A stretch of 64,000 nt of DNA from Rufibacter radiotolerans. Lineage in GTDB: Bacteria; Bacteroidota; Bacteroidia; Cytophagales; Hymenobacteraceae. Below are positions 52,981 through 64,000 of this stretch, in pieces. The notes beneath the pieces are model-generated. The model was not told the DNA's origin, did no database searches, and saw only the letters and a program-made list of their open reading frames with translations. The first letter of the stretch is position 1. Each line of letters starts with the position of its first letter. The stretch is taken from assembly GCF_001078055.1 (NCBI RefSeq), contig NZ_CP010777.1:952408-1016407 (forward strand), written 5' to 3'. Made by a program: the position numbers and the translations under genes.

Positions 52981-53027
52981 TCACATGGGGCGTTTATAAG
53001 GCTTTGACAGATACCCTTCTAAAAAAG

Positions 53028-53065
53028 ATTCCCCGGTTCCTCTCACCTAAGAGGTACCGGGGAAT
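53028..53065. terminator. Terminator of nadAB
   Basis: ATTCCCCGGT-CCTCT pairs with AGAGG-ACCGGGGAAT and is followed by TTTT. It could also serve the convergent SRPBCC gene. Confidence 0.8.
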
Positions 53066-53068
53066 TTT

Positions 53069-53110
53069 CTGTTTTAGGGCTGTTTTCTCTAAAATAGGCG
53101 TAAAATAGAA
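53069..53110. repeat. Chromosomal palindrome, last copy before the cassette array
   Basis: TCTGTTTTAGGGCTGTTTTC / TAAAATAGGCGTAAAATAGA; abuts the nadAB terminator. Confidence 0.7.
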
Positions 53111-53161
53111 AGCAGGCATGAAGATGTTTTAAGCTGATCCCATGCAATTAAAGTGGAAGGT

Positions 53162-53620
53162 TTAAAAAGGGAAGGCTGTCCCATCTTTCTCTACAAAGGC
53201 AGGTAAAGAAACGCCAATGATATGTTGCCAGCCTGCCTCAAAGTTCTTGCGCGCAAAGTCTGGGTTAGACGCCGGAAAGGTTTCCAGCCCAGTGTGGGTG
53301 AGGAGGACCTTGGTTTCATTTTCCTCCAGGGGTATGAGTTCAAAGGTGACCAAGGTGTTGCCCTCATACCCGTCATACCGCCAGGTGTGGGTCAGTTTAC
53401 GGCCTGGTTCAACCGCCGTGATTTCGCAAAGGTGTAGATACGAGTTTTCTTCGGTTCCGCCTACAAACTGGAATTTGAATCCTACCTCGGGCCGGAACAC
53501 CGCCAGGTCAAAAAACCACTGCTTCATCTGGTCTTTATCCGTGATGGCTTGCCAGACCTTGGCTGCTGGGGCGTTTACCGTTTGCTCAACTTTGATAGGG
53601 TCTTGGGGCATGGGTACCAT
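53162..53620 (-). CDS. SRPBCC/AHSA1-domain protein
   Basis: A 152-residue START-like (Bet v1 fold) protein: VEQTVNAPAAKVWQAITDKD at the N-terminus, TAVEPGRKLTHTWRYDG in the middle, and FEAGWQHIIGVSLPAFVE at the end are typical of activator-of-Hsp90-ATPase-1-like (AHSA1) SRPBCC proteins. These bind hydrophobic ligands; the ligand is unknown. Either ATG 53620 or ATG 53611 may be used. Base composition is like the chromosome, and no attC-type sequence follows its stop, so I treat it as the fixed gene flanking the far end of the array. Confidence 0.85.
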   Translation of the reverse strand: MVPMPQDPIKVEQTVNAPAAKVWQAITDKDQMKQWFFDLAVFRPEVGFKFQFVGGTEENSYLHLCEITAVEPGRKLTHTWRYDGYEGNTLVTFELIPLEENETKVLLTHTGLETFPASNPDFARKNFEAGWQHIIGVSLPAFVEKDGTAFPF

Positions 53621-53655
53621 ATTCTTTTTTAGAGGGCTGGGGCTGAGGATGCAGA

Positions 53656-53709
53656 GTTTAACGTGCTGGGCTTTGCCATGGCGTAGCTATGGTAAAGGTG
53701 TTGTTAGCG
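53656..53709 (-). other. attC site of cassette C16 (array terminus)
   Basis: 54 bases. Plus-strand borders GTTTAAC and GTTAGCG; the latter complements CGCTAAC at the start of C16 (54206-54212). Arms CTTTGCCAT/ATGGTAAAG pair. It lacks the GGCC-GTC-GGCC hairpin, so it is a different attC subtype. Confidence 0.75.
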
Positions 53710-53755
53710 ACTGACTATTTTAAGTAATAGCATTAATGACGTTTGTCTGTCAGGT

Positions 53756-54184
53756 TTAATCATTACCTATTAAATTATATACCCCAAACAGATACTCTTC
53801 CTTTTTCAGCTTAGTTGAGTCACAACCAAATTCAGCCGTCTTAAAGACTACATATTCATTATTCCTCATCTTCAACATCTGTCGTGTTCCAGAAGGCTTC
53901 TTAATGGTGTCTCCCAAACTTATAGCTTCATACACACCAGTGTCCTCCCCAAATAAGTCAAGAGTATCCATGTTATTTTGAAAATCTATTAACACCACTG
54001 TAGGTGTAGAATGGTTTGACTTATCGAGATACTTCTTCTGAATAACACCCTCAAACTTCATTTTGCCAAAGTCTTCATTCCATGTACAATTATGGAAATT
54101 AGTACTTGGAATACAGAAATATATTACCAAGATAAAAGCCCCAAAGAACAGCAATGGTATAGTTCTATTCCTTGGATTTTTCAT
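53756..54184 (-). CDS. Cassette C16: small membrane-anchored protein, hypothetical
   Basis: A 142-residue protein with one N-terminal membrane segment (TIPLLFFGAFILVIYFCIP) and an extracytoplasmic domain of short beta-like stretches (GVIQKKYLDKSNHSTPTVVL; TIKKPSGTRQMLKMR). Two cysteines (in HNCTW and FGCDS) could form a disulfide. The NHSTPTV context recalls small exported Bacteroidota proteins of unknown function. Last cassette of the array; ends 47 bases before its attC border. Confidence 0.7.
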   Translation of the reverse strand: MKNPRNRTIPLLFFGAFILVIYFCIPSTNFHNCTWNEDFGKMKFEGVIQKKYLDKSNHSTPTVVLIDFQNNMDTLDLFGEDTGVYEAISLGDTIKKPSGTRQMLKMRNNEYVVFKTAEFGCDSTKLKKEEYLFGVYNLIGND

Positions 54185-54205
54185 TTTCTATTAATTAAGG
54201 CTTAC

Positions 54206-54337
54206 CGCTAACGATTTGTAGCTTAGTGAAGGGCGGGTTTTTTAGTACTAAAGTTCATGCAAAGTAAAAACGCTCAGCCTTGCACTAGCCTTACTTCGAA
54301 GCAAGTAAGCCCGCCTTTTACCAAGCCGTTGTTATGC
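54206..54337 (-). other. attC site of cassette C15 (long variant)
   Basis: 132 bases. Borders CGCTAAC and GTTATGC; the latter complements GCATAAC at 54937. Arms GAAGGGCGGG and CCCGCCTTTTAC pair, with an inner GCCTTGC.../TACTTCGAAGCAAGTA hairpin. About twice the size of its neighbours and unrelated in its core. Confidence 0.75.
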
Positions 54338-54838
54338 GTTCGTTATTTTTTTCCTTATTACTTTCCATTTTTTAAATCCTCCGATTAGATATAGTAATCC
54401 AATTGCCAATGCGACAAATGAATATGCTATTTCTGTTGTCGAGTGTTTGCTTCGCGTAGTTTCATAGATTAATTCTCCAAGTCCACGGAATATATAAATA
54501 CCCCCAATTAAAAATATTACGGGCTTTAGGAACGGCATTTTGGGGAGTTTATCGTCGGCTAACAGTCCATAAAGGCCAAAAACTAAAAATACTAAAGCAA
54601 CAACAATTGTTAGTAAATATGGAAATGATGAATGGATTTCTGAAAGTTCATTCATTTGTTTACTAATACCAAATAACTTAAACACTTGAACCATCCAAAT
54701 CAGTCCGATAAGATGTACAAATGCAATTAATAAGTTTATGTATCCGCCTAGTTTCAGCATAAATAGTTTAATACCTGTTTTTAGATAATCTTCATATATT
54801 TCGGAATTTAATTGAATCAGTTTAAGATTCTTATTCAT
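54332..54838 (-). CDS. Cassette C15: four-helix membrane protein, hypothetical
   Basis: A 168-residue integral membrane protein with four predicted helices (LGGYINLLIAFVHLIGLIWM; SFPYLLTIVVALVFLVFGLY; FLKPVIFLIGGIYIFRGLGE; IAYSFVALAIGLLYLIGGF) and a basic C-terminus. No family recognised. The last codons overlap the attC border, so the cassette has almost no 3' untranslated space. Confidence 0.72.
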   Translation of the reverse strand: MNKNLKLIQLNSEIYEDYLKTGIKLFMLKLGGYINLLIAFVHLIGLIWMVQVFKLFGISKQMNELSEIHSSFPYLLTIVVALVFLVFGLYGLLADDKLPKMPFLKPVIFLIGGIYIFRGLGELIYETTRSKHSTTEIAYSFVALAIGLLYLIGGFKKWKVIRKKITNA

Positions 54839-54936
54839 TCACATTAATGCATAGATGAAATAGACTGAAAAGTGTCATAAAATTTACCTTCTTAGCAGGC
54901 GCATACAATTATTTGGCGTTGAATCTGTATAATGAA

Positions 54937-55005
54937 GCATAACGGACTCGTGTAAAAAACGTGCAAGGCCGTCGGCCGTAGCATGATTTTTACACAATGT
55001 TATGG
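54937..55005 (-). other. attC site of cassette C14
   Basis: 69 bases. Borders GCATAAC / GTTATGG; arms GTGTAAAAA and TTTTTACAC pair around GGCC-GTC-GGCC. GTTATGGCC complements GGCCATAAC at 55437-55445. Confidence 0.9.
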
Positions 55006-55425
55006 CCTGTTTTTCCTTATTAGCGCATACAGGGCTTCAATTTTCATTGATTCTTCTAAAGTCCACTTTCTCATTGTGTTTAAGTTGACCATTCTTGCGA
55101 AGTCGTTTCCACCCTCAATTATATAGTTGTACTTATTCCCTTTAAACCAAACAACAGCGTAGTATATTTCCCCTCCATGCTTTTGCTGATAGAAACGCTT
55201 TACCTTTGTTTCTTTAAAAAGTGCTTTCAAATCGGCTGTTTCTGGTCCATTCAATTTTACCGTTTTAGCTTGTTGGGAAGCAAGGTCACGATGGTTATGC
55301 TGAAGTCCTGCCGTTGTCCCTGCACGTTTGAAGTCTTTATAAATAAATATTGAATCTGCTTCAATTTGGCAGAAAGCTGGAATTGTAAATAGTATCAGGA
55401 AGGCTAGAAGTAATATCTTTTTCAT
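55000..55425 (-). CDS. Cassette C14: exported protein, hypothetical
   Basis: A 141-residue protein with a signal peptide (MKKILLLAFLILFTIPAFCQ). The mature part has AGLQHNHRDLASQQAKTVKL and a YYAVVWFKGNKYNYIIEGG strand-turn-strand stretch, ending in a charged helix. No known domain recognised. Stop codon falls inside the attC right border (R' end). Confidence 0.72.
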   Translation of the reverse strand: MKKILLLAFLILFTIPAFCQIEADSIFIYKDFKRAGTTAGLQHNHRDLASQQAKTVKLNGPETADLKALFKETKVKRFYQQKHGGEIYYAVVWFKGNKYNYIIEGGNDFARMVNLNTMRKWTLEESMKIEALYALIRKNRP

Positions 55426-55438
55426 ATTTATAAATTGG

Positions 55439-55506
55439 CCATAACGGACTAGTATAAACTACGGCGAAGGCCGTCGGCCGATGCTGGCGTTTATGCAGTG
55501 TTACCA
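55439..55506 (-). other. attC site of cassette C13
   Basis: 68 bases. Borders CCATAAC / GTTACCA; arms GTATAAAC and GTTTATGC around GGCC-GTC-GGCC. GTTACCAGC complements GCTGGTAAC at 55912-55920. Confidence 0.9.
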
Positions 55507-55513
55507 GCAGGTT

Positions 55514-55891
55514 TTATTTAACTTTTATAATCTTCCCGAAAATTTTACTTATGTGAAGATAGCTTGCATTGGGAGGGCTATGTTTTCTAGGGTCGGTCTC
55601 TACAGTAGAAAAACTAAGTGTATCCTTTAATATATCAGCTAATGATATCTCAATACGTTGGGTCGAGAAATTATCTTGAAGGTAGATTGTTGAATGAGAA
55701 TATCTAATCGTGCCTTTAACTATACCTCCATTCTTCAATTTTTTTGAATAGGTGCTATCAGAGAAAATGATTGAGTTGTCATCCAGATAATATTGATGGT
55801 CATATTTAATTACATATTCCCCAGATAGCTTTTCTTTTCTTTGAGAGATGGGAATTACGCTTACTAGTATGAAAATCAGAATTTGATACAT
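55514..55891 (-). CDS. Cassette C13: exported beta-rich protein, hypothetical
   Basis: A 125-residue protein with a short N-terminal hydrophobic segment (YQILIFILVSVIPI) and alternating polar/apolar strands (GEYVIKYDHQYYLDDNSIIF; GGIVKGTIRYSHSTIYLQDN). Looks like a small single-domain envelope protein. Not recognised. Confidence 0.68.
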   Translation of the reverse strand: MYQILIFILVSVIPISQRKEKLSGEYVIKYDHQYYLDDNSIIFSDSTYSKKLKNGGIVKGTIRYSHSTIYLQDNFSTQRIEISLADILKDTLSFSTVETDPRKHSPPNASYLHISKIFGKIIKVK

Positions 55892-55913
55892 CTCTTATCA
55901 TTATTAAACTTGC

Positions 55914-55981
55914 TGGTAACGGACTAGGCTAAGCGGCGGCGGAGGCCGTCGGCCGAGGATGCCGTTTAGGTGTTGTTACGC
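55914..55981 (-). other. attC site of cassette C12
   Basis: 68 bases. Borders TGGTAAC / GTTACGC; arms CTAAGCGGC and GCCGTTTAG around GGCC-GTC-GGCC. GTTACGC complements GCGTAAC at 56510. Confidence 0.9.
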
Positions 55982-55997
55982 GAAGTTGTTTTTATTT

Positions 55998-56495
55998 TTA
56001 CACCTGCTCTTTTGTTAGCTCTAAAGAAGTTTTTTCCTGCTGTAATTCATTTTCAATCTTATTGAGCAGATATATCACTACCAATGGCACTATGTTGACA
56101 ACAAGGAAAGCTTCTTCGTGGTCCGTGTTCCAGTTATATTCAAAGCTTGACAAGGCAGCATTAAGTTTTAACAGCATACCTTCTGTTAGGTCAAAACCGA
56201 TAATCACCCCTAATCCTGAAATATACTGAAAACTATAGCCCGCAACGGCGAAACCAATGATTTGCAAAATTTGATTAATTCTAGAGGGTAACATCCCTTT
56301 TGTTGGGTTCTTTAGCAATATTAGTCCGCAAGCAATTGAGAATAAGAATAGCATTAACATGGCGAATAGAAAAAGAACTGCATAGCCATTGAATGCTTCG
56401 GTCTGTAATATGTAATGAATCAGAATCACAAGTCCGATGAATCCGCCAATTATCTGATACCAGCTAAGAATTTTTATTTCAGTATCTAATTTCAT
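55998..56495 (-). CDS. Cassette C12: four-helix membrane protein, hypothetical
   Basis: A 165-residue membrane protein with helices near IIGGFIGLVILIHYIL, GYAVLFLFAMLMLFLFSIAC, ILQIIGFAVAGYSFQYISGL and VVNIVPLVVIYLLN, and a charged C-terminal tail. ATG 56495 is chosen over an adjacent TTG. No family recognised. Confidence 0.7.
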   Translation of the reverse strand: MKLDTEIKILSWYQIIGGFIGLVILIHYILQTEAFNGYAVLFLFAMLMLFLFSIACGLILLKNPTKGMLPSRINQILQIIGFAVAGYSFQYISGLGVIIGFDLTEGMLLKLNAALSSFEYNWNTDHEEAFLVVNIVPLVVIYLLNKIENELQQEKTSLELTKEQV

Positions 56496-56509
56496 CAAAT
56501 ATCAATTAT

Positions 56510-56576
56510 GCGTAACGGATAGTATAAACGGCGGCTGAGGCCGTCGGCCGATGCTGGTGTTTACACAATGTTGGCT
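56510..56576 (-). other. attC site of cassette C11
   Basis: 67 bases. Borders GCGTAAC / GTTGGCT; arms GTATAAACGG and TGTTTACAC around GGCC-GTC-GGCC. GTTGGCTA complements TAGCCAAC at 57634. Confidence 0.9.
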
Positions 56577-57624
56577 AAAGTATTTTTATCTGTAGGTATT
56601 GGAAATCTTTATTGAGGTCGCCTCCCTCATCCCAAAATGCCTGTGCATGGAGAACCTTCACAACAATTGTGTTTGCGTCCTGCCAATAAATCTCCTGAGG
56701 CTCTAAAGCGGCCATCCATTTGCTGAAGCTCGCCTCCAGTTCTTTCTTTATAGTTTTGCTGTCGATGATTTTGTACAACTGAAAGTCGGTAGTCTGGTCG
56801 TAAGGGTTGGTGTACAGAGAAACAATATACCGCCCGTCAGGGGAAATATAGGGATAATCATTGAAGCTGATAATCTCCTCACCTTTTTCAGAACTGTAGA
56901 GCATGTACTCACTTCCTTCATAGTACCCGATTGAGAGCAGAAACGAATTAAGGAGTTCTGAATGTCCAACGTAAGTGTAGTCCTTCCTACTTTCCTCTGC
57001 ATTGGGTGAGCTTACATACTTCTTTTTCTGCCCATTACCTGTGGATACAATGAGTACAGTATCTTTCTGCGAGACTAAGGTGTTGCGAGGAACAATAAAC
57101 TTATCTTTCTCTTGCTTATCTTTCTCAAATTCATCTTTGCTGATTAGGTTAATCTTCAATTTGCCATTAATAGTCGCATTGTCAGAAGTCAGGTATAAAT
57201 CCTTGGCTGTCAGCTTAACCTGTATGAGAGGCCCTACATCAAGTTTGGGTATATTCACTACCTCCCAGCCAGATGACTGAATTTGCTGGCCGTTTCTCAC
57301 AAAGCTTCTCCCTATGCGTTCTTTTATCTGGTACCAGCTTGCTGCCTCCCCAATGACTTCCACCTTGTAGCCATATTCTAGCGTCTCTAAAACTGCTGAC
57401 TGCTTATCGGGCTTCTCATAGATATTGCTCCCTTTTGGATTTGTGACATAAAGAGTCTTTATGGTAGGTATCTCAAACACGTCCACCTTAGCTTCTGGAG
57501 CATGCTTTTCAATTTGGCTAACCGTCGGCACTTTGTTTTCGGTTCTTTTCAAACTGTCTGAATTTGAGCAGCCTAAGGAGACGCCTATCAAGGGGAGTAA
57601 GAGAATGATATTTGAATTTTTCAT
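56575..57624 (-). CDS. Cassette C11: lipoprotein with SH3-like domain
   Basis: A 349-residue protein, the largest cassette product. Signal peptide with lipobox (IGVSLGCSNSD) is followed at about residues 55-115 by a bacterial SH3-like stretch (YVTNPKGSNIYEKPDKQSAV; YKVEVIGEAASWYQIKERIG). The remaining 230 residues are unassigned but contain repeating strand-like segments (YTYVGHSELLNSFLLSIGYY; PYISPDGRYIVSLYTN, reminiscent of a single WD/PD40-type blade). Probably periplasmic or surface-anchored; binding partner unknown. The stop codon abuts the attC. Confidence 0.72.
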   Translation of the reverse strand: MKNSNIILLLPLIGVSLGCSNSDSLKRTENKVPTVSQIEKHAPEAKVDVFEIPTIKTLYVTNPKGSNIYEKPDKQSAVLETLEYGYKVEVIGEAASWYQIKERIGRSFVRNGQQIQSSGWEVVNIPKLDVGPLIQVKLTAKDLYLTSDNATINGKLKINLISKDEFEKDKQEKDKFIVPRNTLVSQKDTVLIVSTGNGQKKKYVSSPNAEESRKDYTYVGHSELLNSFLLSIGYYEGSEYMLYSSEKGEEIISFNDYPYISPDGRYIVSLYTNPYDQTTDFQLYKIIDSKTIKKELEASFSKWMAALEPQEIYWQDANTIVVKVLHAQAFWDEGGDLNKDFQYLQIKIL

Positions 57625-57634
57625 CTAATATTTT

Positions 57635-57702
57635 AGCCAACGTACTGGGCTAAACGGCGGCGACAGCCGTCGGCTGGAGTTGCCGTTTAGGTGATGTTGT
57701 AA
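57635..57702 (-). other. attC site of cassette C10 (compensatory variant)
   Basis: 68 bases. Borders AGCCAAC / GTTGTAA. The central hairpin is AGCC-GTC-GGCT instead of GGCC-GTC-GGCC, a paired change that keeps the stem. Arms CTAAACGGC/GCCGTTTAG. GTTGTAAAGC complements GCTTTACAAC at 58139. Confidence 0.9.
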
Positions 57703-57720
57703 AGCGTTATTTTTAAGCAT

Positions 57721-58131
57721 TTATTGGTTGACTTTGCATATTGCAAAAGTTTTCCTGTCTGACAGTAGATATAAGTGATATGTCTTTTCGTATTTGTTTT
57801 CAGTGATTGAAGATTTAGCCATATTCAATATATCCAGGTTATTACGATATAAGTAATCGTCTAATTCAATATTTAAGTAGTAGGTGCCTTTTTTAAATCT
57901 GTCACTTGTTACGATTGAATTTTCCAAGTTTCGAAAAGCCAAGGAGTCGATTGTAAAAAGGCTGTATTCCATCATAGGTTCAAGAAACCTACTTTCTTTC
58001 CCTGATTGAATCAAGGTCGGCTTGTAAACTCTATCAAATTCAGCCATTTCATTTACATCATCAAACAGTTCGGAGTCTGTTTGACAACTGACAAATAGTA
58101 ACGCGGCTAAAAGTAAAAAAAGTCGGTTCAT
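57721..58131 (-). CDS. Cassette C10: lipoprotein, hypothetical
   Basis: A 136-residue lipoprotein (MNRLFLLLAALLFVSC). Upstream in-frame codons run into the attC, so ATG 58131 is used. The mature protein is acidic at first (DDVNEMAEFD) and later has IELDDYLYRNNLDILNMAKS. No domain recognised. Confidence 0.7.
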   Translation of the reverse strand: MNRLFLLLAALLFVSCQTDSELFDDVNEMAEFDRVYKPTLIQSGKESRFLEPMMEYSLFTIDSLAFRNLENSIVTSDRFKKGTYYLNIELDDYLYRNNLDILNMAKSSITENKYEKTYHLYLLSDRKTFAICKVNQ

Positions 58132-58141
58132 TTTTAATGCT

Positions 58142-58209
58142 TTACAACGGTTAGTATAAAAAACGTGCAAGGCCGTCGGCCGAAGCATGATTTTTATACA
58201 ATGTTATAT
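58142..58209 (-). other. attC site of cassette C9
   Basis: 68 bases. Borders TTACAAC / GTTATAT; arms GTATAAAAA and TTTTTATAC around GGCC-GTC-GGCC. GTTATATGC complements GCATATAAC at 58683. Confidence 0.9.
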
Positions 58210-58232
58210 GCAGCTTTTTTTTCTTGTTTGTA

Positions 58233-58649
58233 TCAATAATTACCATTCTTGTTCAAAAGCAATTTATTGAAGTCCTGAACAAACCTTGGAATGCAAGTTT
58301 GATCGGTCTTGAACTTGAATTTCATACACTGTTCTTCATAAGTGCCGCCTACTTGTCCATTAACATATAGATTTCCATTCGGCTCTATCGAGAACTCTAC
58401 GAATCCGTCAGAGTCGTTGTCTTCAATTCTTGCTGAACCTTTTAGTGATGAGTAAAGGTCGAGTAGATTCTTGCAAAAGCTTTCTATTTCATCACGTCTT
58501 ACACAAAAGTGGGAAGTCCCGCTGAAGTCACCCGAACGCACCTTAAGGTCGAAAGTGAAATTTATCTGAACCAAGTACCTTGTTGCAAAAGAGAGCTTTT
58601 CAGTTTGTGAATTAGTTTGCAGCTCAATTATGTCATCAAGTTCTAGCAT
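58233..58649 (-). CDS. Cassette C9: cytoplasmic protein, possibly WapI/immunity-like
   Basis: A 138-residue soluble protein without signal peptide, the only clearly cytoplasmic product in the array. The order of elements (FSGTSHFCVRRDEIESFCKN, LLDLYSSLKGSARI, FSIEPNGNLYVNGQVGG, FKFKTDQTCIPRFVQDFNKL) resembles small WapI/DUF6228-type proteins, some of which are immunity proteins to toxins. This is a loose resemblance from memory and should be taken as a hint only. Confidence 0.6.
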   Translation of the reverse strand: MLELDDIIELQTNSQTEKLSFATRYLVQINFTFDLKVRSGDFSGTSHFCVRRDEIESFCKNLLDLYSSLKGSARIEDNDSDGFVEFSIEPNGNLYVNGQVGGTYEEQCMKFKFKTDQTCIPRFVQDFNKLLLNKNGNY

Positions 58650-58684
58650 AAAGGTTCTATGGCTTATTTGTAATCTAAAGTTGC

Positions 58685-58752
58685 ATATAACGTCTAGTAT
58701 AAACAGCGGGCGAGGCCGTCGGCCGAAGGCTGACGTTTATACCTTGTTGCCA
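58685..58752 (-). other. attC site of cassette C8
   Basis: 68 bases. Borders ATATAAC / GTTGCCA; arms GTATAAAC and GTTTATAC around GGCC-GTC-GGCC. GTTGCCAG complements CTGGCAAC at 59317. Confidence 0.9.
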
Positions 58753-58756
58753 GGAG

Positions 58757-59302
58757 TTATTTTTCAATACTTCTCCAGTTTGACCACACACCGAATGCTC
58801 CTAAGCCTATTCCAAACAATCCGCCAAACATTGCTCCCCATATTGAGCCGCCGACCCAAGCATATCCTATCATTTTTCTGAAGTCTTCAGGTACATTAAT
58901 GAATGTTCTTTTGTAGAAGTCGGGGCTCAAAGTTGCCAGACCCATTGCAATCAGTCCACCAATGACCCAGCATAGGTATACAAATCCTACCACTCTAAGT
59001 AAATGCCTGAACCCGAAGCTAAAAGTCGATTGTCCTTTAGTCACAAAACCGATTGTCGCAACAAAAACTAGGGTGAACACTATCCCATAAAGTAGTCCCT
59101 CAAATATTCCCTGAGCTATGCTAGCGGCCCAAATGCCTTCAAAGTCCCAGCCCATAACATTGCGGAAATAAGTAGGACTAACAAATCCGTTAATAAGATT
59201 AGTAGTTGCCCCAATAAACCCACTTGCTAAGACGCTGGTAATTGCGACCCAAAGAATAGTTAGGTAATTGGTTTCTTTTCTGTAGTCAAAAGTTGAATTC
59301 AT
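58757..59302 (-). CDS. Cassette C8: four-helix membrane protein, hypothetical
   Basis: A 181-residue integral membrane protein with Gly/Ala-rich helices (ITSVLASGFIGATTNLI; GIFEGLLYGIVFTLVFVAT; LLRVVGFVYLCWVIGGLIAM; GSIWGAMFGGLFGIGLGAF). ATG 59302 is used because the earlier ATG would lie inside the attC. Glycine-zipper-like packing in the last helix. No family recognised. Confidence 0.7.
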   Translation of the reverse strand: MNSTFDYRKETNYLTILWVAITSVLASGFIGATTNLINGFVSPTYFRNVMGWDFEGIWAASIAQGIFEGLLYGIVFTLVFVATIGFVTKGQSTFSFGFRHLLRVVGFVYLCWVIGGLIAMGLATLSPDFYKRTFINVPEDFRKMIGYAWVGGSIWGAMFGGLFGIGLGAFGVWSNWRSIEK

Positions 59303-59317
59303 ATTTTTATTAATTAC

Positions 59318-59383
59318 TGGCAACGGTTAGTATAAGCGGCGACGAAGGCCGTCGGCCGAGATGCAGTTTATACAGTGTTAGGT
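59318..59383 (-). other. attC site of cassette C7
   Basis: 66 bases. Borders TGGCAAC / GTTAGGT; arms TATAAGC/GTTTATA around GGCC-GTC-GGCC. GTTAGGTGCC complements GGCACCTAAC at 59937. Confidence 0.9.
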
Positions 59384-59917
59384 GCCGCTTTTTTTCTTTT
59401 TATTTATGAAAAGCCATATAATGAGAGGAATTAGCCCTAGGGTTGTAGTTATTCCCAATCCTATATAGCCGTCTTGCCATGAATTGCTAGTCCTTTCGTA
59501 GCTGTTAGACCACGAAAAATAGTACTCCCAATAATCCCCGTTCCATAAACCAATTGCGTAATCCTTTTTCCAATCCGCTTTTTTGAATTTATATTCGTCT
59601 CCACTTACTACTTGGGCAATATGCCTTATATATTGTCTCCTCCCAAGCCCAGGAATCAATGAGTCAACTTTCTGATTTAAGTCGCTTGTGTAATCCTCGT
59701 AATAATCCCTGTGCCAAGTGAAGTATTCTCTGTTTGATGGCAATCGGCCGTTTTCTACTTTAAATTGATTGATGAAGATTACTGACGGCTTTATATTCTT
59801 TTCTACAAAGTCTATGTTCCGTTGAATTTGGTTTGGAGTGTCGAGGAATATAGAGAAACCATAGATTAATATAAAAACAGCCCATATTATTGATACAATC
59901 GCTAAAACTGTTTTCAT
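59378..59917 (-). CDS. Cassette C7: membrane protein with extracytoplasmic loop, hypothetical
   Basis: A 179-residue protein with an N-terminal helix (VLAIVSIIWAVFILIYGF), a loop of about 120 aromatic-rich residues (REYFTWHRDYYEDYTSDL; YAIGLWNGDYWEYYFSW) and a C-terminal helix (LGITTTLGLIPLIIWLFI) ending in KKKK. Likely both ends in the cytoplasm with the Tyr/Trp-rich loop outside. Unassigned. Confidence 0.7.
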   Translation of the reverse strand: MKTVLAIVSIIWAVFILIYGFSIFLDTPNQIQRNIDFVEKNIKPSVIFINQFKVENGRLPSNREYFTWHRDYYEDYTSDLNQKVDSLIPGLGRRQYIRHIAQVVSGDEYKFKKADWKKDYAIGLWNGDYWEYYFSWSNSYERTSNSWQDGYIGLGITTTLGLIPLIIWLFINKKKKSGT

Positions 59918-59939
59918 TAGCTTTTTTTATCGAAGTGGC

Positions 59940-60006
59940 ACCTAACGTACTTGTGTAAACGACGGCGAGGCCGTCGGCCGATGCTGGCGTTTACACGTTG
60001 TTAGGT
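59940..60006 (-). other. attC site of cassette C6
   Basis: 67 bases. Borders ACCTAAC / GTTAGGT; arms TGTAAACG/CGTTTACA around GGCC-GTC-GGCC. GTTAGGTC complements GACCTAAC at 60749. Confidence 0.9.
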
Positions 60007-60040
60007 CTAGTTTTTCTTTTCAGTGACCTCACATCTTCTT

Positions 60041-60082
60041 ACTGTTTTTAGCCTGTTTTGGTAAAAGTAGCCCGAAAACACG
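60041..60082. repeat. Chromosomal palindrome copy inside cassette C6
   Basis: ACTGTTTTTAGCCTGTTTTGG / AAAAGTAGCCCGAAAACACG: the same family seen throughout the left 53 kb, here between the C6 stop codon and its attC. Confidence 0.65.
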
Positions 60083-60138
60083 TTTTTTGAGTCACTCTTT
60101 TTTTGCAGTCAAACAAGGAGAAGTTGCCACTCAGTTTA

Positions 60139-60714
60139 TCATTTGAATTTTACTGTTTCTATAATTTTCAGTAAGGCCTCATGGTCAGCGGTACCAAGGT
60201 CTTTTCCAACTATGGTAAATTCATAGGCGGTTTCACTTCCCTGTAGTTTAATACCTCTGAAATGTGCTCCTGTAACTCCTTTTCCTACTTGTTTTGGGAT
60301 TACAACCTTTGCTTTAACTCCATTGATTCTCTTCTCTTCAAATTTCTGGGTAACAAGCTTTTCTTGCATGGTCGGAACATCTTTGTCCGTCGGAACAAAC
60401 ACGAATCGGGACATGTCGGCGCCTTCTTTCAAAAGCTTTTCCCTTACTCTTTCTGGAACCACTATTTGTTTCCTTCCGTCATCACTTAGACTCTCTGTGC
60501 CTAGGCTAAAGATAACCCCTAAAGTGTCACTGCTGGAGGTAATTATGTCACCTTGGAATGCGTCAATTACTGGGCCCTCATATCTTAGGTATTTCCATTC
60601 TGGTGGAACCTTCAATGTGAATGATTGCGTCTCTATCTCTGTCCAGCCTGAATAAGTGCAGGAAGAGGTAAGGGCAAAACATATTACTAAAAACAGAGGA
60701 GAAGTAGACTTCAA
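60139..60714 (-). CDS. Cassette C6: lipoprotein, hypothetical
   Basis: A 191-residue lipoprotein (lipobox FALTSSC). The mature part begins with FTLKVPPEWKYLRYEG, a pattern common in small PsbP-like lipoproteins of Bacteroidota, and ends with DLGTADHEALLKIIETVKF, again typical of that fold. The start is TTG; no in-frame ATG precedes the signal peptide. Function unknown. Its 3' region carries a host palindrome. Confidence 0.7.
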   Translation of the reverse strand: MKSTSPLFLVICFALTSSCTYSGWTEIETQSFTLKVPPEWKYLRYEGPVIDAFQGDIITSSSDTLGVIFSLGTESLSDDGRKQIVVPERVREKLLKEGADMSRFVFVPTDKDVPTMQEKLVTQKFEEKRINGVKAKVVIPKQVGKGVTGAHFRGIKLQGSETAYEFTIVGKDLGTADHEALLKIIETVKFK

Positions 60715-60749
60715 TTTTATGTTTTGAATTTTTTACTATTATAAATTAG

Positions 60750-60818
60750 ACCTAACGGTCTCGTATAAACAGCGAGCAAGGCCGTCGGCCGTAGCTTGTT
60801 GTTTATACAATGTTAGCG
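60750..60818 (-). other. attC site of cassette C5
   Basis: 69 bases. Borders ACCTAAC / GTTAGCG; arms GTATAAAC and GTTTATAC around GGCC-GTC-GGCC. GTTAGCGGC complements GCCGCTAAC at 61354. The C5 reading frame now runs into this site. Confidence 0.9.
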
Positions 60819-61333
60819 GCTGGCATTTTTTTCACCTCTCCAGAGCAATTCTTTTCACCTCTCCAGAGCAATTCTTTTCCTTTTCTCTTTTTCAAATACA
60901 TTTTCCTAGTAGTCATATACCGTTCACCAAAGAACAGGTATTTTCTGCGTCGGCTTAAACCCTGTCCCTGTTTAACTACGTGACCATCTAAATGGAATGA
61001 GTACAACTTTCCGTTTTTAAAGAGAAATCTTTTCGGTCTGTATCCGTTGCTAGATAAAGTCCGAGCAATCAAATCTACAGAATCGGCAGAATGCTCTGGT
61101 TCAAAGTCGAGATGTATTACACTTACATCTTCCACTCTGTACTTTCCTGTTCCTTTGTTATGTGACAATTCTCCGCTGAATTCATATTTGAATGTGGAGT
61201 CCTTATTTAGTTGAATTCTTGTAACGAAGAATCCCAAGTCGGCTACGTTACTTGAATAATAACCCGCTAAATTCTTTTGACTGCAAGAATCAAGTGAAAG
61301 TAATACCAAGATTAAAATAGCGAAATTTCTCAA
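60803..61333 (-). CDS. Cassette C5: lipoprotein with altered C-terminus, hypothetical
   Basis: A 176-residue lipoprotein (LLSLDSCSQK) with strand-rich middle (IQLNKDSTFKYEFSGELSHN; KGTGKYRVEDVSVIHLDFEP), reminiscent of small exported proteins that bind substrates through a beta-sandwich; not assigned. TTG start. A 23-bp tandem duplication (60829-60874) within the last codons changes the frame: with one copy the protein would end GEKNASR at a TAA in the attC border, whereas now it reads on and ends KKMPAANIV inside the attC. Confidence 0.7.
   Translation of the reverse strand: MRNFAILILVLLSLDSCSQKNLAGYYSSNVADLGFFVTRIQLNKDSTFKYEFSGELSHNKGTGKYRVEDVSVIHLDFEPEHSADSVDLIARTLSSNGYRPKRFLFKNGKLYSFHLDGHVVKQGQGLSRRRKYLFFGERYMTTRKMYLKKRKGKELLWRGEKNCSGEVKKMPAANIV
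60829..60874. repeat. 23-bp tandem duplication in the end of C5
   Basis: TTTTCACCTCTCCAGAGCAA plus TTC occurs twice in direct succession (60829-60851, 60852-60874). As 23 is not a multiple of three it shifts the reading frame. Confidence 0.9.
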
Positions 61334-61355
61334 TTCTATATTTTTTATTGCTTGC

Positions 61356-61423
61356 CGCTAACGTCTAGTGCATGAGACATGCAAGGCCGTCGGCCGTAAC
61401 ATGGCTTATGCACCTTGTTAGCA
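61356..61423 (-). other. attC site of cassette C4
   Basis: 68 bases. Borders CGCTAAC / GTTAGCA; arms TGCATGAGACATGC / ACATGGCTTATGCA around GGCC-GTC-GGCC. GTTAGCAC complements GTGCTAAC at 61841. Confidence 0.9.
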
Positions 61424-61427
61424 CCTG

Positions 61428-61820
61428 TTATTTTTCTAGTTCTCTACCGAACCCCATTTTAAGGTAGGTTTTTTCTATTTCATTTACAGGACGCTTCTTG
61501 TATTCAGAATAAATGGCGTAAACTTCATCTAGAGATTTTACTCCAGCATCATAGTTTGCTTTACCCCATTTATAAATCGCCAAGCCTCTTTTCGTATCGT
61601 AAATCCCTGGTTTTATTTGTATTCCGTCGTTCTCGTGTCCCTTAATTGATGTAAAGAAGTCGAATCTACCTCCTTCTTCTGTTTCCTTTAGAATATATGC
61701 CTTTAAATCGGATTGGGAAAGAGTAGTAGTTGATGTTTGGCTACTTTGTTGAGCTACTTTTTCAGAACAGCTTGTTAGAACTTGTAAAAGAATGAATGAT
61801 GCAATTAGAGCTTTTGACAT
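61428..61820 (-). CDS. Cassette C4: lipoprotein, hypothetical
   Basis: A 130-residue lipoprotein (LLQVLTSCSEK) with a Ser/Thr/Gln-rich linker and a compact domain (GGRFDFFTSIKGHENDGIQI; YDAGVKSLDEVYAIYSEYKK) containing a final helix-rich KRPVNEIEKTYLKM. No family recognised. Confidence 0.7.
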   Translation of the reverse strand: MSKALIASFILLQVLTSCSEKVAQQSSQTSTTTLSQSDLKAYILKETEEGGRFDFFTSIKGHENDGIQIKPGIYDTKRGLAIYKWGKANYDAGVKSLDEVYAIYSEYKKRPVNEIEKTYLKMGFGRELEK

Positions 61821-61841
61821 TATTTATGTTTAATTAATTGG

Positions 61842-61908
61842 TGCTAACGGTCTCGTGTAAACGACGGCGAAGGCCGTCGGCCGAGGTGACGTTTATACCT
61901 TGTTGGCA
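61842..61908 (-). other. attC site of cassette C3
   Basis: 67 bases. Borders TGCTAAC / GTTGGCA; arms TGTAAACG/CGTTTATA around GGCC-GTC-GGCC. GTTGGCAG complements CTGCCAAC at 62468. Confidence 0.9.
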
Positions 61909-61918
61909 GACGTAATTT

Positions 61919-62455
61919 TTAGTTCATCCATTTAGCGTTGAAGTTACTGACAAAAAAGGTGTCTACTGAAACCCCGTTTTTATCCTCAAAATGGCAATTG
62001 ATTTTTATTGTCCATTTCTCCTTGAGTTCTTGCTTTGTCGCATTGAGGTTATTTATTTTTAAACTAAAGTAAGCAGTGTCGCCTACTGGTTTTACTTCAA
62101 AGCCATTGCTAAAATCAAAAATCCTTTCTTTTTGAGTCGTATCGAGTAAATAAGTTTTAGAGTATGAGAGGTTTTCTTTTTGTGCAAGCCTTTTGAAAAC
62201 ACTGTCAAGCATCCAAAACTTTACTTTTACTAATTCAAAGTTCCCAGAAGAATCGATTGTTAACTCCCCGTAAGGTTTTTCCTCCTCCTCAAAAGGTCGG
62301 TTATCTGAAGGATAATATTCTGAACTAGGCAACCTTAAGTATTTATTCCCATTATAGGTAAACGAGGGAAAAGGCTTCTCTTCGACTTTCCGTTTTGTTT
62401 CTTTGCATGAGCTTAGCAACGAAATAGTAAATACAAGTATTAATATTTTCTTCAT
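61919..62455 (-). CDS. Cassette C3: lipoprotein, hypothetical
   Basis: A 178-residue lipoprotein (TISLLSSCKET). The mature part is acidic near residue 50 (NRPFEEEEKPYGELTID) and has strand-rich segments (GFEVKPVGDTAYFSLKIN; KINCHFEDKNGVSVDTFFVS). No domain recognised. Confidence 0.7.
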   Translation of the reverse strand: MKKILILVFTISLLSSCKETKRKVEEKPFPSFTYNGNKYLRLPSSEYYPSDNRPFEEEEKPYGELTIDSSGNFELVKVKFWMLDSVFKRLAQKENLSYSKTYLLDTTQKERIFDFSNGFEVKPVGDTAYFSLKINNLNATKQELKEKWTIKINCHFEDKNGVSVDTFFVSNFNAKWMN

Positions 62456-62468
62456 TTTTATTTATGAC

Positions 62469-62520
62469 TGCCAACGGTTAGGCTACAAAGCGTTTTGATG
62501 CTTTGTAGCTGTTGTTGTAT
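62469..62520 (-). other. attC site of cassette C2 (short variant)
   Basis: 52 bases. Borders TGCCAAC / GTTGTAT; arms GGCTACAAAGC and GCTTTGTAGCT pair. It lacks the GGCC hairpin, like the terminal site at 53656. GTTGTATG complements CATACAAC at 62986. Confidence 0.85.
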
Positions 62521-62531
62521 GAAGTTTAATT

Positions 62532-62954
62532 TTACACCCCTTCTAATATCAATTTTAGTAAAAATAAGCTTACTCCGGTTGGTATCAGTAAAAGCAAGAA
62601 GAGCATACATTTGTCAAAAAATTTGATTCCATTCTTCCCCTTTGGAGGAGAATCCCATCTAGTGGCCAAGATTAAGGGTCTCTTATAAATAAATAGCGAT
62701 AAGTAGTTCAGAAGTCGGAGTAGCATTAAATATATCAAAGGATTGAAATAGAAAAATTCTCTATTGTCAAAATTTATCACTCTCCATAGTCCAAAGGTTC
62801 CTATTAATAGTGCGCCTATGATGTGGATTGAGAATATTTTCTCGTTGAATAATTTGTAATAATATTTATCCTTTTGCCTTGATGAATTGCTGATTGTCAA
62901 AAAACAATATCCAATTCCTATTACTATACTCAGAATTAAACCTATATTATTCAT
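62532..62954 (-). CDS. Cassette C2: four-helix membrane protein, hypothetical
   Basis: A 140-residue integral membrane protein: helices near IGLILSIVIGIGYCFLTI, IFSIHIIGALLIGTFGLW, FNPLIYLMLLRLLNYLSLFI and CMLFLLLLIPTGVSLFLLKL. A basic loop (SPPKGKNGIKFFDK) precedes the last helix. Unassigned. Confidence 0.7.
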   Translation of the reverse strand: MNNIGLILSIVIGIGYCFLTISNSSRQKDKYYYKLFNEKIFSIHIIGALLIGTFGLWRVINFDNREFFYFNPLIYLMLLRLLNYLSLFIYKRPLILATRWDSPPKGKNGIKFFDKCMLFLLLLIPTGVSLFLLKLILEGV

Positions 62955-62986
62955 AGGTAAGTAGCATATTAAATTTTACATATTGC

Positions 62987-63054
62987 ATACAACGTCTAGT
63001 ATAAACGACGGACGAGGTCGTCGGCCGAAGGTTGACGTTTATGCCTTGTTGGGT
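62987..63054 (-). other. attC site of cassette C1 (wobble variant)
   Basis: 68 bases. Borders ATACAAC / GTTGGGT. The hairpin reads GGTC-GTC-GGCC, a single change giving a wobble-type pair. Arms GTATAAACG/CGTTTATG. GTTGGGTGGC complements GCCACCCAAC at 63533. Confidence 0.88.
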
Positions 63055-63070
63055 GGCGTTGTTTTTTCTT

Positions 63071-63113
63071 TTCCATTTTTAGCCTGTTTTTAAGAAAACT
63101 AATCAAAATCAGG
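63071..63113. repeat. Chromosomal palindrome copy inside cassette C1
   Basis: CATTTTTAGCCTGTTTTTAAG / GAAAACTAATCAAAATCAGG: eroded member of the family; it provides the TGA stop codon of C1. Confidence 0.5.
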
Positions 63114-63516
63114 CTGTTGTAGATTCTTTTCTTTCTTTAAACCATCTAATGATTGCCAGAGCGCCAATCGAGCAAGAGATAGCTAAAGAGTAAAATATCT
63201 GGTTTGCAATGATGTTTGAAACCACTCTTTCATAGTCATATCCATAAATCTGCTCTAAGATTTTCTCAGTGAAAGAAAGGCTAATAAATAGACCTATGAC
63301 AGAGAAAAGGGTCGAGTAAAATATTTTTTCAAAAGTAGTGAAGCTAAAAAGGGGTAGAAGGTATAAAGCGGAAAGACATATAGTCAAAAACAGAATAGCA
63401 TAGTGCATATACCAGTCAACTCCGCCTTTCTGAAAAAGTGAATCGGTGAATACTGACCATATTACTATAACCAGAAAAATGAACAGATACCTTTTCGATG
63501 ACAGCCTTTCTATCAT
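63109..63516 (-). CDS. Cassette C1: four-helix membrane protein, hypothetical
   Basis: A 135-residue membrane protein directly behind the recombinase, thus the most recently placed cassette if the usual insertion polarity holds. Helices: YLFIFLVIVIWSVFTDSLF; WYMHYAILFLTICLSALYL; IFYSTLFSVIGLFISLSF; IFYSLAISCSIGALAIIRW. Ends in KERKESTTA, with the stop codon contributed by a palindromic repeat. No family recognised. Confidence 0.7.
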   Translation of the reverse strand: MIERLSSKRYLFIFLVIVIWSVFTDSLFQKGGVDWYMHYAILFLTICLSALYLLPLFSFTTFEKIFYSTLFSVIGLFISLSFTEKILEQIYGYDYERVVSNIIANQIFYSLAISCSIGALAIIRWFKERKESTTA

Positions 63517-63532
63517 AATATTTAATTATCAA

Positions 63533-63683
63533 TGCCACCCAACTACTGTATATACGTACCACCTACGGTTATCTGACCTATGTGCGTAAGTGTGAAAGCC
63601 CGTTTTACTTGGTTCCTTCCCCGGCCAGTTTTGTCTTTGGTTTTTTCCATAGTCGGTATTAAAGGTAAGATAAGAGTATTTTA
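63533..63683 (-). other. attI-like junction next to the recombinase
   Basis: The array begins at GTTGGGTGGC on the minus strand (plus-strand GCCACCCAAC, 63533-63542), about 140 bases beyond the recombinase stop codon. By position this 140-base stretch is the attI region. It has no attC-like fold that I can see. A 35-codon open frame (63543-63650, minus strand) ends exactly at the junction and may be incidental. No terminator is visible, so transcripts of the recombinase gene could continue into the cassettes. Confidence 0.6.
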
Positions 63684-64000
63684 CTACAAGGTATCCAGCG
63701 GGCTCTTTATTTTGTCCACCGCATAAGTGGTGATGTGCGTGTAAATCTCGGTGGTCTTACTTGATTTGTGGCCTAGCAAGGTTTGGATGTAGCGCAAATC
63801 GGTGCCTTGCTCCAGCAGGTGCGTGGCGAAGGAATGCCTTAGCGTATGGGGGGTGGCCTTGGTTTTGATCCCTGCCTTTTCCATAGCTAACCGGAATACA
63901 TTTCTGATGCTCTCCACGGAGTATTGCCCCCCAAACTGCCCCTCAAACAACCACTCCTTCGGCCGGTAGGCCTTATAGTACTCCCTAAGGCTTTCCAGGA
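63684..64000 (-). CDS. Tyrosine recombinase, C-terminal 104 residues (cut by window end)
   Basis: Catalytic domain of a phage-integrase-family recombinase; the gene starts beyond the window. Visible residues: [12 protein letters not shown] (His-x-x-Arg), [15 protein letters not shown] (His and the Tyr nucleophile), and a KIKSPLDTL tail resembling the SPLD end of many IntI proteins. The region before the HTLRH box ([15 protein letters not shown], then [18 protein letters not shown]) lacks the roughly 20-35-residue insertion with paired His seen in IntI, and looks like a XerC/D-like recombinase instead. It is co-directional with the cassettes. It is the best candidate for the enzyme that moves them. 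Confidence 0.85.

Follow-up and report, generated by a model that had tools for sequence, protein, structure and literature searches.

A chromosomal cassette array in Rufibacter radiotolerans points to integron-like gene capture by a non-IntI recombinase in Bacteroidota

Toward the end of a 64,000-nucleotide stretch of the Rufibacter radiotolerans chromosome (the window, G000:C1:952408-1016407 of a single-contig 4.82-Mb genome), 16 open reading frames (ORFs) of 125-349 aa alternate with 16 palindromic sites resembling the attC sites of integrons, all on the minus strand, from 53662 to 63542. Judging from its sequence, the array very probably belongs to a system of integron-like gene capture, in which a tyrosine recombinase other than IntI is likely to recombine folded attC sites and to insert circular cassettes at an attI site. 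Since the array adjoins a recombinase without the IntI insert, and look-alikes of its attI site, mostly with further cassette sites behind them, occur across related genomes, gene capture of the integron type is likely driven by another family of enzymes in Bacteroidota, a phylum of major soil, marine and gut bacteria. The system would work in the manner of an integron, yet its recombinase falls outside the IntI-based definition, and we therefore set it apart as a variant of the integron.

The attC-like sites are 61-64 nt long in 13 of the 16 cassettes, the others measuring 47, 49 and 124 nt. An earlier note on this DNA had placed 16 same-strand ORFs and 16 palindromes at 53656-63542, in agreement with the limits re-derived here, and had called the array richer in A/T than the preceding 53 kb, which is borne out by a G+C content per kb of 0.33-0.40 over 54001-63000 versus 0.44-0.60 over 1-53000. 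It had also described the recombinase as reversed, and the gene indeed runs in the same direction as the cassettes. The features are as follows, in window coordinates unless another sequence is named.

63684-64000, minus strand: 3′ end of the recombinase gene (104 codons and the stop); the whole gene (490 aa) is L007:16092-17564, or G000:C1:1016091-1017563
63543-63610, minus strand: attI-like site, with the crossover predicted between G and TT; this G pairs with the C at 63543, and on the minus strand ACATAGGTCAGATAACCGTAGGTGGTACGTATATACAGTA directly precedes GTT
62993-63542, minus strand: cassette 1, ORF 63109-63516 (135 aa), attC 62993-63050
62475-62992, minus strand: cassette 2, ORF 62532-62954 (140 aa), short attC 62475-62516
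61848-62474, minus strand: cassette 3, ORF 61919-62455 (178 aa, lipobox), attC 61848-61904
61362-61847, minus strand: cassette 4, ORF 61428-61820 (130 aa, lipobox), attC 61362-61419
60756-61361, minus strand: cassette 5, ORF 60803-61333 (176 aa, lipobox), attC 60756-60814
59946-60755, minus strand: cassette 6, ORF 60139-60714 (191 aa), attC 59946-60002
59324-59945, minus strand: cassette 7, ORF 59378-59917 (179 aa), attC 59324-59379
58691-59323, minus strand: cassette 8, listed ORF 58757-59323 (188 aa), attC 58691-58748
58148-58690, minus strand: cassette 9, ORF 58233-58649 (138 aa; WapI-like immunity family PF24716, E 7.1e-12), attC 58148-58205
57641-58147, minus strand: cassette 10, listed ORF 57721-58188, which overruns the cassette (the start codon likely lies inside it), attC 57641-57698
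56516-57640, minus strand: cassette 11, ORF 56575-57624 (349 aa, SH3_3 domain), attC 56516-56572
55920-56515, minus strand: cassette 12, ORF 55998-56498 (166 aa), attC 55920-55977
55445-55919, minus strand: cassette 13, ORF 55514-55891 (125 aa), attC 55445-55502
54943-55444, minus strand: cassette 14, ORF 55000-55425 (141 aa), attC 54943-55001
54212-54942, minus strand: cassette 15, ORF 54332-54838 (168 aa), long attC 54212-54330, right core uncertain by 6 nt
53662-54211, minus strand: cassette 16 at the distal end, ORF 53756-54184 (142 aa), short attC 53662-53705
53162-53620, minus strand: gene for an AHSA1-type protein, the first beyond the array and not a cassette
L007:17673-18065, plus strand: companion gene, divergent from the recombinase gene and outside the window

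The sites are imperfect palindromes with YAAC/GTTR cores, and they can fold. A central GGCCGACGGCC-type hairpin is common to 13 of 15 aligned sites, upholding the conserved attC core of the earlier note, and the RNAalifold consensus of 15 sites (the long site of cassette 15 being left out) comprises an outer R arm, a 9-pair L stem and a terminal hairpin, with 10 of its 19 pairs changed on both sides while the pair is kept. When four sites were folded singly as DNA, the minimum energy was lower on the plus (bottom) strand in all four; the full consensus was the minimum in one of them, and the L stem and terminal hairpin only in a second, so that a consensus fold with compensatory changes exists but is not adopted by every single site. 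When 15 of the 16 sites were made into a covariance model, a whole-genome search with it recovered 14 of the 16, which by construction is a sensitivity check only; a search of 53000-64000 against Rfam at E 1 returned no family.

Because the start of a circular cassette must pair with its own R'' arm, complementarity between the two ends of the same cassette is a mark of circular units. In the 16 cassettes of the window, the mean complementary run is 7.6 nt for own ends versus 2.7 nt for all other pairs and 3.2 nt for linear neighbours; the own pair is the best in its row for 14 of the 16, and none of 200,000 permutations reached the observed own-pair sum. For cassette 15 the run is 2, a value that varies with the choice of core. 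A pattern search of this locus and 26 others yielded 79 cassettes, a set that retains cassettes spanning an undetected site; their means are 6.4 for own ends and 2.9 for both neighbours and random pairs, with an own-end run of only 2 in 16 of the 79. The ten cassettes of Flavobacterium enshiense DK69 (L109) give 8.3 versus 3.3, and smaller sets point in the same direction (L103, 6.4 versus 3.7 in seven cassettes; L110, 6.0 versus 2.8 in three; L092, 7.0 versus 3.5 in three). These sequence relations indicate that the cassettes move as circular units. The idea that the sites are repetitive palindromes lying between ordinary genes, with no cassette mobility, can appeal to the high similarity of the central hairpin among sites, but is scarcely credible in the face of own-end complementarity, cassette-length copies, a defined attI boundary and a single orientation.

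While the R box of canonical attC sites spans 7 bp, the outer arm of these sites continues past the core to a length of about 13 bp. Across the 79 cassettes, positions 11-13 are paired in 70-82%. There is little variation at position 10, which has A at the cassette start in 75 of 79 and G in the complement of R'' in 70 of 79; the bottom strand thereby has a T.G wobble in 87% of the cassettes, while on the top strand, where A stands opposite C, a wobble occurs in 0%. The same wobble is found in all ten F. enshiense cassettes, and it may serve as a cue for strand choice.

The recombinase is a 490-aa tyrosine recombinase whose gene reads toward the array, its stop codon lying 141 nt from the attI boundary. 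The ORF is open and matches Phage_integrase (PF00589) with E 8.7e-42, and R348, H437, R440, H463 and Y472, which we take to be the catalytic residues, are invariant across 15 aligned relatives. By profile, structure and tree comparison, this enzyme is not IntI. Residues 201-248 of IntI4 (2a3v) have no counterpart in it, as the earlier note had proposed in describing a recombinase without the IntI insert, and matches of this recombinase family, among those listed, skip profile positions ~181-240 of TIGR02249. With that model the recombinase obtains 201 bits, split over two pieces, against a cut-off of 265, and the best NCBIfam model, NF040815 (archaeal XerA type, although its title also holds “integron integrase”), reaches 210.8 bits against a cut-off of 220. 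The spacing between Arg I and His II is 89-94 in 29 parsed Bacteroidota rows (10 were unparsed) versus 131 in IntI1, the three other IntI rows being unparsed. In a tree of 64 rows, for which the bootstrap has not settled, the four IntI sequences form a clade (100/100), as do the three Xer sequences (100/99), and the 39 Bacteroidota rows fall outside both without forming a single clade in the best tree. The recombinase thus has neither the additional domain nor the clade membership by which IntI is recognized.

The link between this recombinase and the arrays holds well beyond the window. Matches to the recombinase at E of at most 1e-40 were found in 27 of 39 genomes, including all 16 of the genus (R. 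radiotolerans among them), and sites of the attC model R1 (E at most 0.01) in at least 24 of the 39, including the same 16. R1 sites lie 3′ of the recombinase in the expected orientation at its own locus, in 21 of 22 further family loci (L049-L070) and at two of two remnants (L078 and L079); a number of sites are matched on the opposite strand too, in the same position and with a lower score, and these second matches were not counted separately. The exception is L055, where the sequence ends ~220 bp past the stop and one site lies on the other side. At order level (L071-L077), R1 sites were present in one of seven loci (L074).

A detector independent of R1, combining cores with L-box complementarity at a threshold of 8, gives the same picture. 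Counted as downstream on the same strand, downstream on the opposite strand, upstream on the same strand and upstream on the opposite strand, its sites number 77/4/1/0 in 25 Hymenobacteraceae loci (one contig appearing twice), 53/5/2/0 in 38 other Bacteroidota loci and 2/0/3/1 in 45 loci of other phyla; at least two downstream same-strand sites are present in 17/25, 9/38 and 0/45 loci, respectively. Three of the 45 are IntI loci (L146, L158 and L163), in which arrays would be expected 5′ of the gene, on a side covered by at most 2.3 kb. The counts omit L084 (on the same contig as L060), L096 and the two remnants, and L085 is counted beside L063 from the same contig; one scan kept the best 80 of 591 stretches. 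The detector finds few or no sites in Flavobacterium and Mediterranea, where they were recognized from repeated words: F. enshiense, Seonamhaeicola, Algibacter and Mediterranea sp. An20 have arrays in the same place with quite different attC sequences. Those of Mediterranea sp. An20 (L103, from 11431) are short and have ATTA instead of GTTA as the right core, with own-end complementarity still above that of non-own pairs. A related recombinase in a clostridial chromosome (Oceanirhabdus sp. W0125-5, L116) lies among many dispersed repeats, and the detector finds no array there.

The system also occurs on a 73.8-kb plasmid of Pontibacter kalidii with transfer genes, where five R1 sites lie 3′ of the recombinase gene, and this copy would offer a route of gene flow that is open to test. 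An IS110-type transposase gene sits within the Pontibacter plasmid cassette array (L164, 17177-18532).

The earlier note had read the locus as a sedentary chromosomal integron; the integron-type architecture and the cassettes as units hold good, while the IntI-based definition does not apply. A textbook sedentary chromosomal integron, its IntI encoded elsewhere or missed and the neighbouring recombinase incidental, would account for the integron-type attC architecture and for the 201 bits, in two pieces, that TIGR02249 does assign to the recombinase. We regard it as highly improbable: no IntI above the TIGR02249 cut-off was among the matches listed for any of the 39 genomes, this one included (14 control genomes likewise gave none, and there is accordingly no positive control), and the recombinase lies next to arrays at its own locus, in 21 of 22 further loci of the family and beyond the family as well, on a single side and strand.

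In an alignment of the sequence following the recombinase stop codon at 24 loci, GTT closed the conserved stretch in 23 of them, mostly preceded directly by TATACANTA; three of the 23 have a diverged attI (L068, L069 and L070), and L061, which has no GTT, was dropped from the attI counts. Interspecies DNA similarity running through the recombinase and attI ends at most 3 bp from the boundary between G and TT in at least 10 pairs (71 of 342 matches listed), and in other pairs ends earlier or continues past it. An inverted repeat within attI resembles the attC L boxes, as in GATAAACG...CGTTTATC at 4512 kb. An attI with a predicted G-to-TT crossover thus appears to lie beside the recombinase. This platform sits in different surroundings from one genome to another, since the AHSA1, NadA, NadB and TPR genes that flank it here were not found in the 69 loci examined, within the flanks covered.

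The single array of the earlier note is only part of the picture, as the chromosome has several arrays, several of them with an attI-like site of their own. In the R. radiotolerans genome there are 32 R1 places (33 rows minus one re-read palindrome), 14 in the main array and 18 in nine other places. The attI pattern occurs four times, at the main site and at the starts of arrays at 862.9, 1893.3 and 4512.0 kb, versus 0 for the reversed control; inspection by eye added attI sites at 504 kb and 2310 kb, together with half-sites at 784 kb and 3735 kb. No recombinase remnant was detected in the satellite stretches of this genome (best tblastn E 0.93). Lone attC-like sites at G000:C1:573726 and 1571300 have no attI recognizable by eye.

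In the relatives, a similar pattern gave 60 matches in 17 of the 39 genomes, versus 2 for the reversed pattern: 10 adjoin the recombinase, 2 are satellites of R. radiotolerans itself, and 48, all of them read, lie away from the recombinase. R1 sites follow 41 of these 48 satellites. On the downstream side, 99 sites have the expected orientation and 0 the opposite one, and 2 sites lie upstream, after five matches re-reading a palindrome on the other strand had been dropped; the median distance to the nearest is 545 bp. Of the seven satellites without R1 sites, four have less than 0.9 kb of contig left and three have ~3.5 kb. The definition of a CALIN (cluster of attC sites lacking an integron integrase), namely an attC cluster without a neighbouring recombinase, fits the satellites and not the main array, given the position of the recombinase stop. 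Because the satellites mostly have attC sites and no recombinase gene, one gene seems to serve several attI docks, on which the enzyme would act in trans.

Cassette content differs among relatives. For 13 of the 16 cassette proteins there was no match at E 1e-4 in 69 loci (the loci, and not whole genomes, being searched); cassettes 5 and 6 have distant matches in other species (39% and 28%), and cassette 14 has one in its own genome. The relatives' arrays examined therefore do not carry the same 16 genes and, given the consensus attC fold, the combination of findings that by the earlier note would have refuted a mobile integron did not arise. The copy of cassette 14 (G000:C1:1892797-1893301, or L082:7798-8302) is found next to a satellite attI at a distance of 885 kb; it is 93% identical over 506 bp, which both start and finish at the cassette cores. 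In 80 DNA matches of at least 200 bp outside the recombinase, both ends lie within 8 bp of a cassette boundary in one locus in 4, one end in 24 and neither in 52, against a background of 0.7% of positions within 8 bp of a boundary. The four are cassette 14, L067-L215 (90%), L051-L206 (91%) and L061-L182 (77%). L067 is an array beside a broken recombinase (G011) and L215 the first cassette at a satellite (G008), while L051 is a main array (G013) and L206 the first cassette at a satellite (G006). Cassette 4 of the window has an 84% DNA match near a satellite attI of G004 (L183), with one end at a boundary. Within one G013 array, an 854-bp duplication (L051, 7641-8492 and 11203-12055) is 98% identical and has one end at a cassette boundary.

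These copies bear on two other explanations. The extra attI-like sites may be the remains of whole integrons that have lost the recombinase, rather than docks served in trans, and one of the 48 satellites (L177) does have a 27-aa recombinase-like fragment nearby (E 7e-4). Around the other 47, no such fragment was found at E 0.01 in the ~1 kb upstream that was examined, and the first cassettes at L206 and L215 match cassettes from main arrays in other species at 90-91%, suggesting fairly recent capture; we consider such remains a possible but rather unlikely explanation. An array that has decayed into a fossil and no longer moves is improbable. Broken recombinase copies do exist, in two pieces with a stop in G011:C111 and with four stops in G021:C10, and some satellite sites look degenerate; against this, the recombinase of the window is open and keeps its catalytic residues, cassettes 90-93% identical in DNA are found at different places and in different species, and few cassettes are common to the arrays of congeners examined.

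The cassette products are mostly envelope-bound in appearance: 9 of the 16 have a transmembrane-like stretch, a lipobox was found by pattern in three more, and lipoboxes were recognized by eye in cassettes 6 and 11. In a search of nine of the 16 cassette proteins together with the companion protein, PADLOC gave 0 matches and NCBIfam two weak ones. A 23-bp tandem duplication (96%) lies at the end of the cassette 5 ORF (60825-60870).

The companion, a divergent 130-aa gene with a CxxC...FCSxxC motif, is found next to the recombinase at 19 of the 22 family loci; it is not beside the recombinases of L069 and L070, and the L066 sequence ends inside the recombinase. It is also present on the Pontibacter plasmid and in some Flavobacteriia loci. 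The gap between the two genes (L007:17565-17672 and its equivalents in 14 other loci) contains, in 8 of the 15, a palindrome that outdoes each of 200 mononucleotide shuffles; in L051 and L057 it is a perfect dyad of 24 + 24 nt, with a different sequence in each. As a guess, the companion could be a regulator with this palindrome as its operator.

Taken together, these observations can be arranged into a putative mechanism. The adjacent recombinase would be the enzyme of the system, acting on folded, single-stranded attC hairpins; its substrate is presumably the bottom strand (the plus strand of the window), as arm wobble pairs occur only there. Two extra N-terminal domains, weakly like HARP/XPB-type modules, may replace the IntI insert in recognizing folded DNA. 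The best match to HARP (PF07443) is 21.4 bits in L071, below the gathering cut-off of 25, with L108, L086 and L098 at E 0.01-0.03, and there is no match at E 0.1 in the recombinase of the window; the N-terminal fold resembles the damage-recognition fold of XPB in a weak structural match, and phmmer of the L071 N-terminus against the PDB found nothing at E 10. No Foldseek match to the N-terminal model reached E 0.001, and the top rows, mostly reverse transcriptases at E 0.03-0.3 with a query TM-score of at most 0.20, were set aside as noise. Circular cassettes would be inserted at the attI beside the recombinase gene, and attI copies elsewhere in the chromosome may be served in trans. With the recombinase gene and the cassettes in the same orientation, the cassettes would be transcribed from a point upstream of attI or inside it.

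A broader proposal, for and against which we see about equal chances, is that of a second integron class across Bacteroidota. Its non-IntI recombinase, equipped with fork-type DNA-binding domains, would read folded attC hairpins and act in trans on many attI docks, so that the platform would be the whole chromosome instead of a single array. With several docks in each genome, an integron would no longer be a single locus but a system that spans the genome. New here are the 48 attI-like sites away from the recombinase, the (weakly) HARP/XPB-like N-terminal domains, and the ~13-bp outer arm with its near-fixed wobble. A search of the open-access literature on integrons with Bacteroidota or site terms, a scope that leaves aside preprints and most subscription papers, yielded, among the matches listed, none on an integron run by a non-IntI enzyme in Bacteroidota.

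Among the closest known systems are the IntI-based sedentary chromosomal integrons, such as those of Vibrio, with these features in common: each cassette has one ORF and one attC, all on one strand, with YAAC/GTTR cores, a crossover between G and TT, attC sites homogeneous within the array, and attI beside the recombinase. In contrast to them, the recombinase described here is outside the IntI clade, lacks the insert and has two extra N-terminal domains, the outer attC arm is ~13 bp long with a near-fixed wobble at bp 10, and there are several attI-like sites per genome and a divergent companion gene. One study regards the IntI insert as essential to the working of integrons and notes that it is not fully conserved in its integron-like subgroup (PMC8138268), and another treats it as a defining trait of IntI (PMC9668308). 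The reversed integrons of Treponema (PMC3607928) use intI, which the enzyme here is not. Bacteroidota appear among integron-bearing phyla in the lists of reviews (PMC8618304, PMC9668308); according to the IntegronFinder 2.0 report, only In0 elements had been found earlier in Bacteroidetes, followed by a complete integron in Salinibacter ruber M1 (PMC9024848), and intI is listed from the Bacteroidetes/Chlorobi group (PMC2426708). The latter two reports rest on IntI detection, whereas no IntI above the cut-off was found here among the matches listed. Insertion of cassettes into genomes at attG sites (Loot et al. 2024, cited in PMC11023631 and described in PMC12901181), which are said in PMC12901181 to diverge from classical att sites, likewise places cassettes outside the main array; the sites described here, unlike attG as described there, fit the main attI pattern and start arrays. 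The catalytic core is like that of XerA/XerD-type recombinases, scoring highest with XerA models and structures, and the N-terminal fold is, weakly, like that of XPB; a point of difference is the link of this recombinase to attC arrays.

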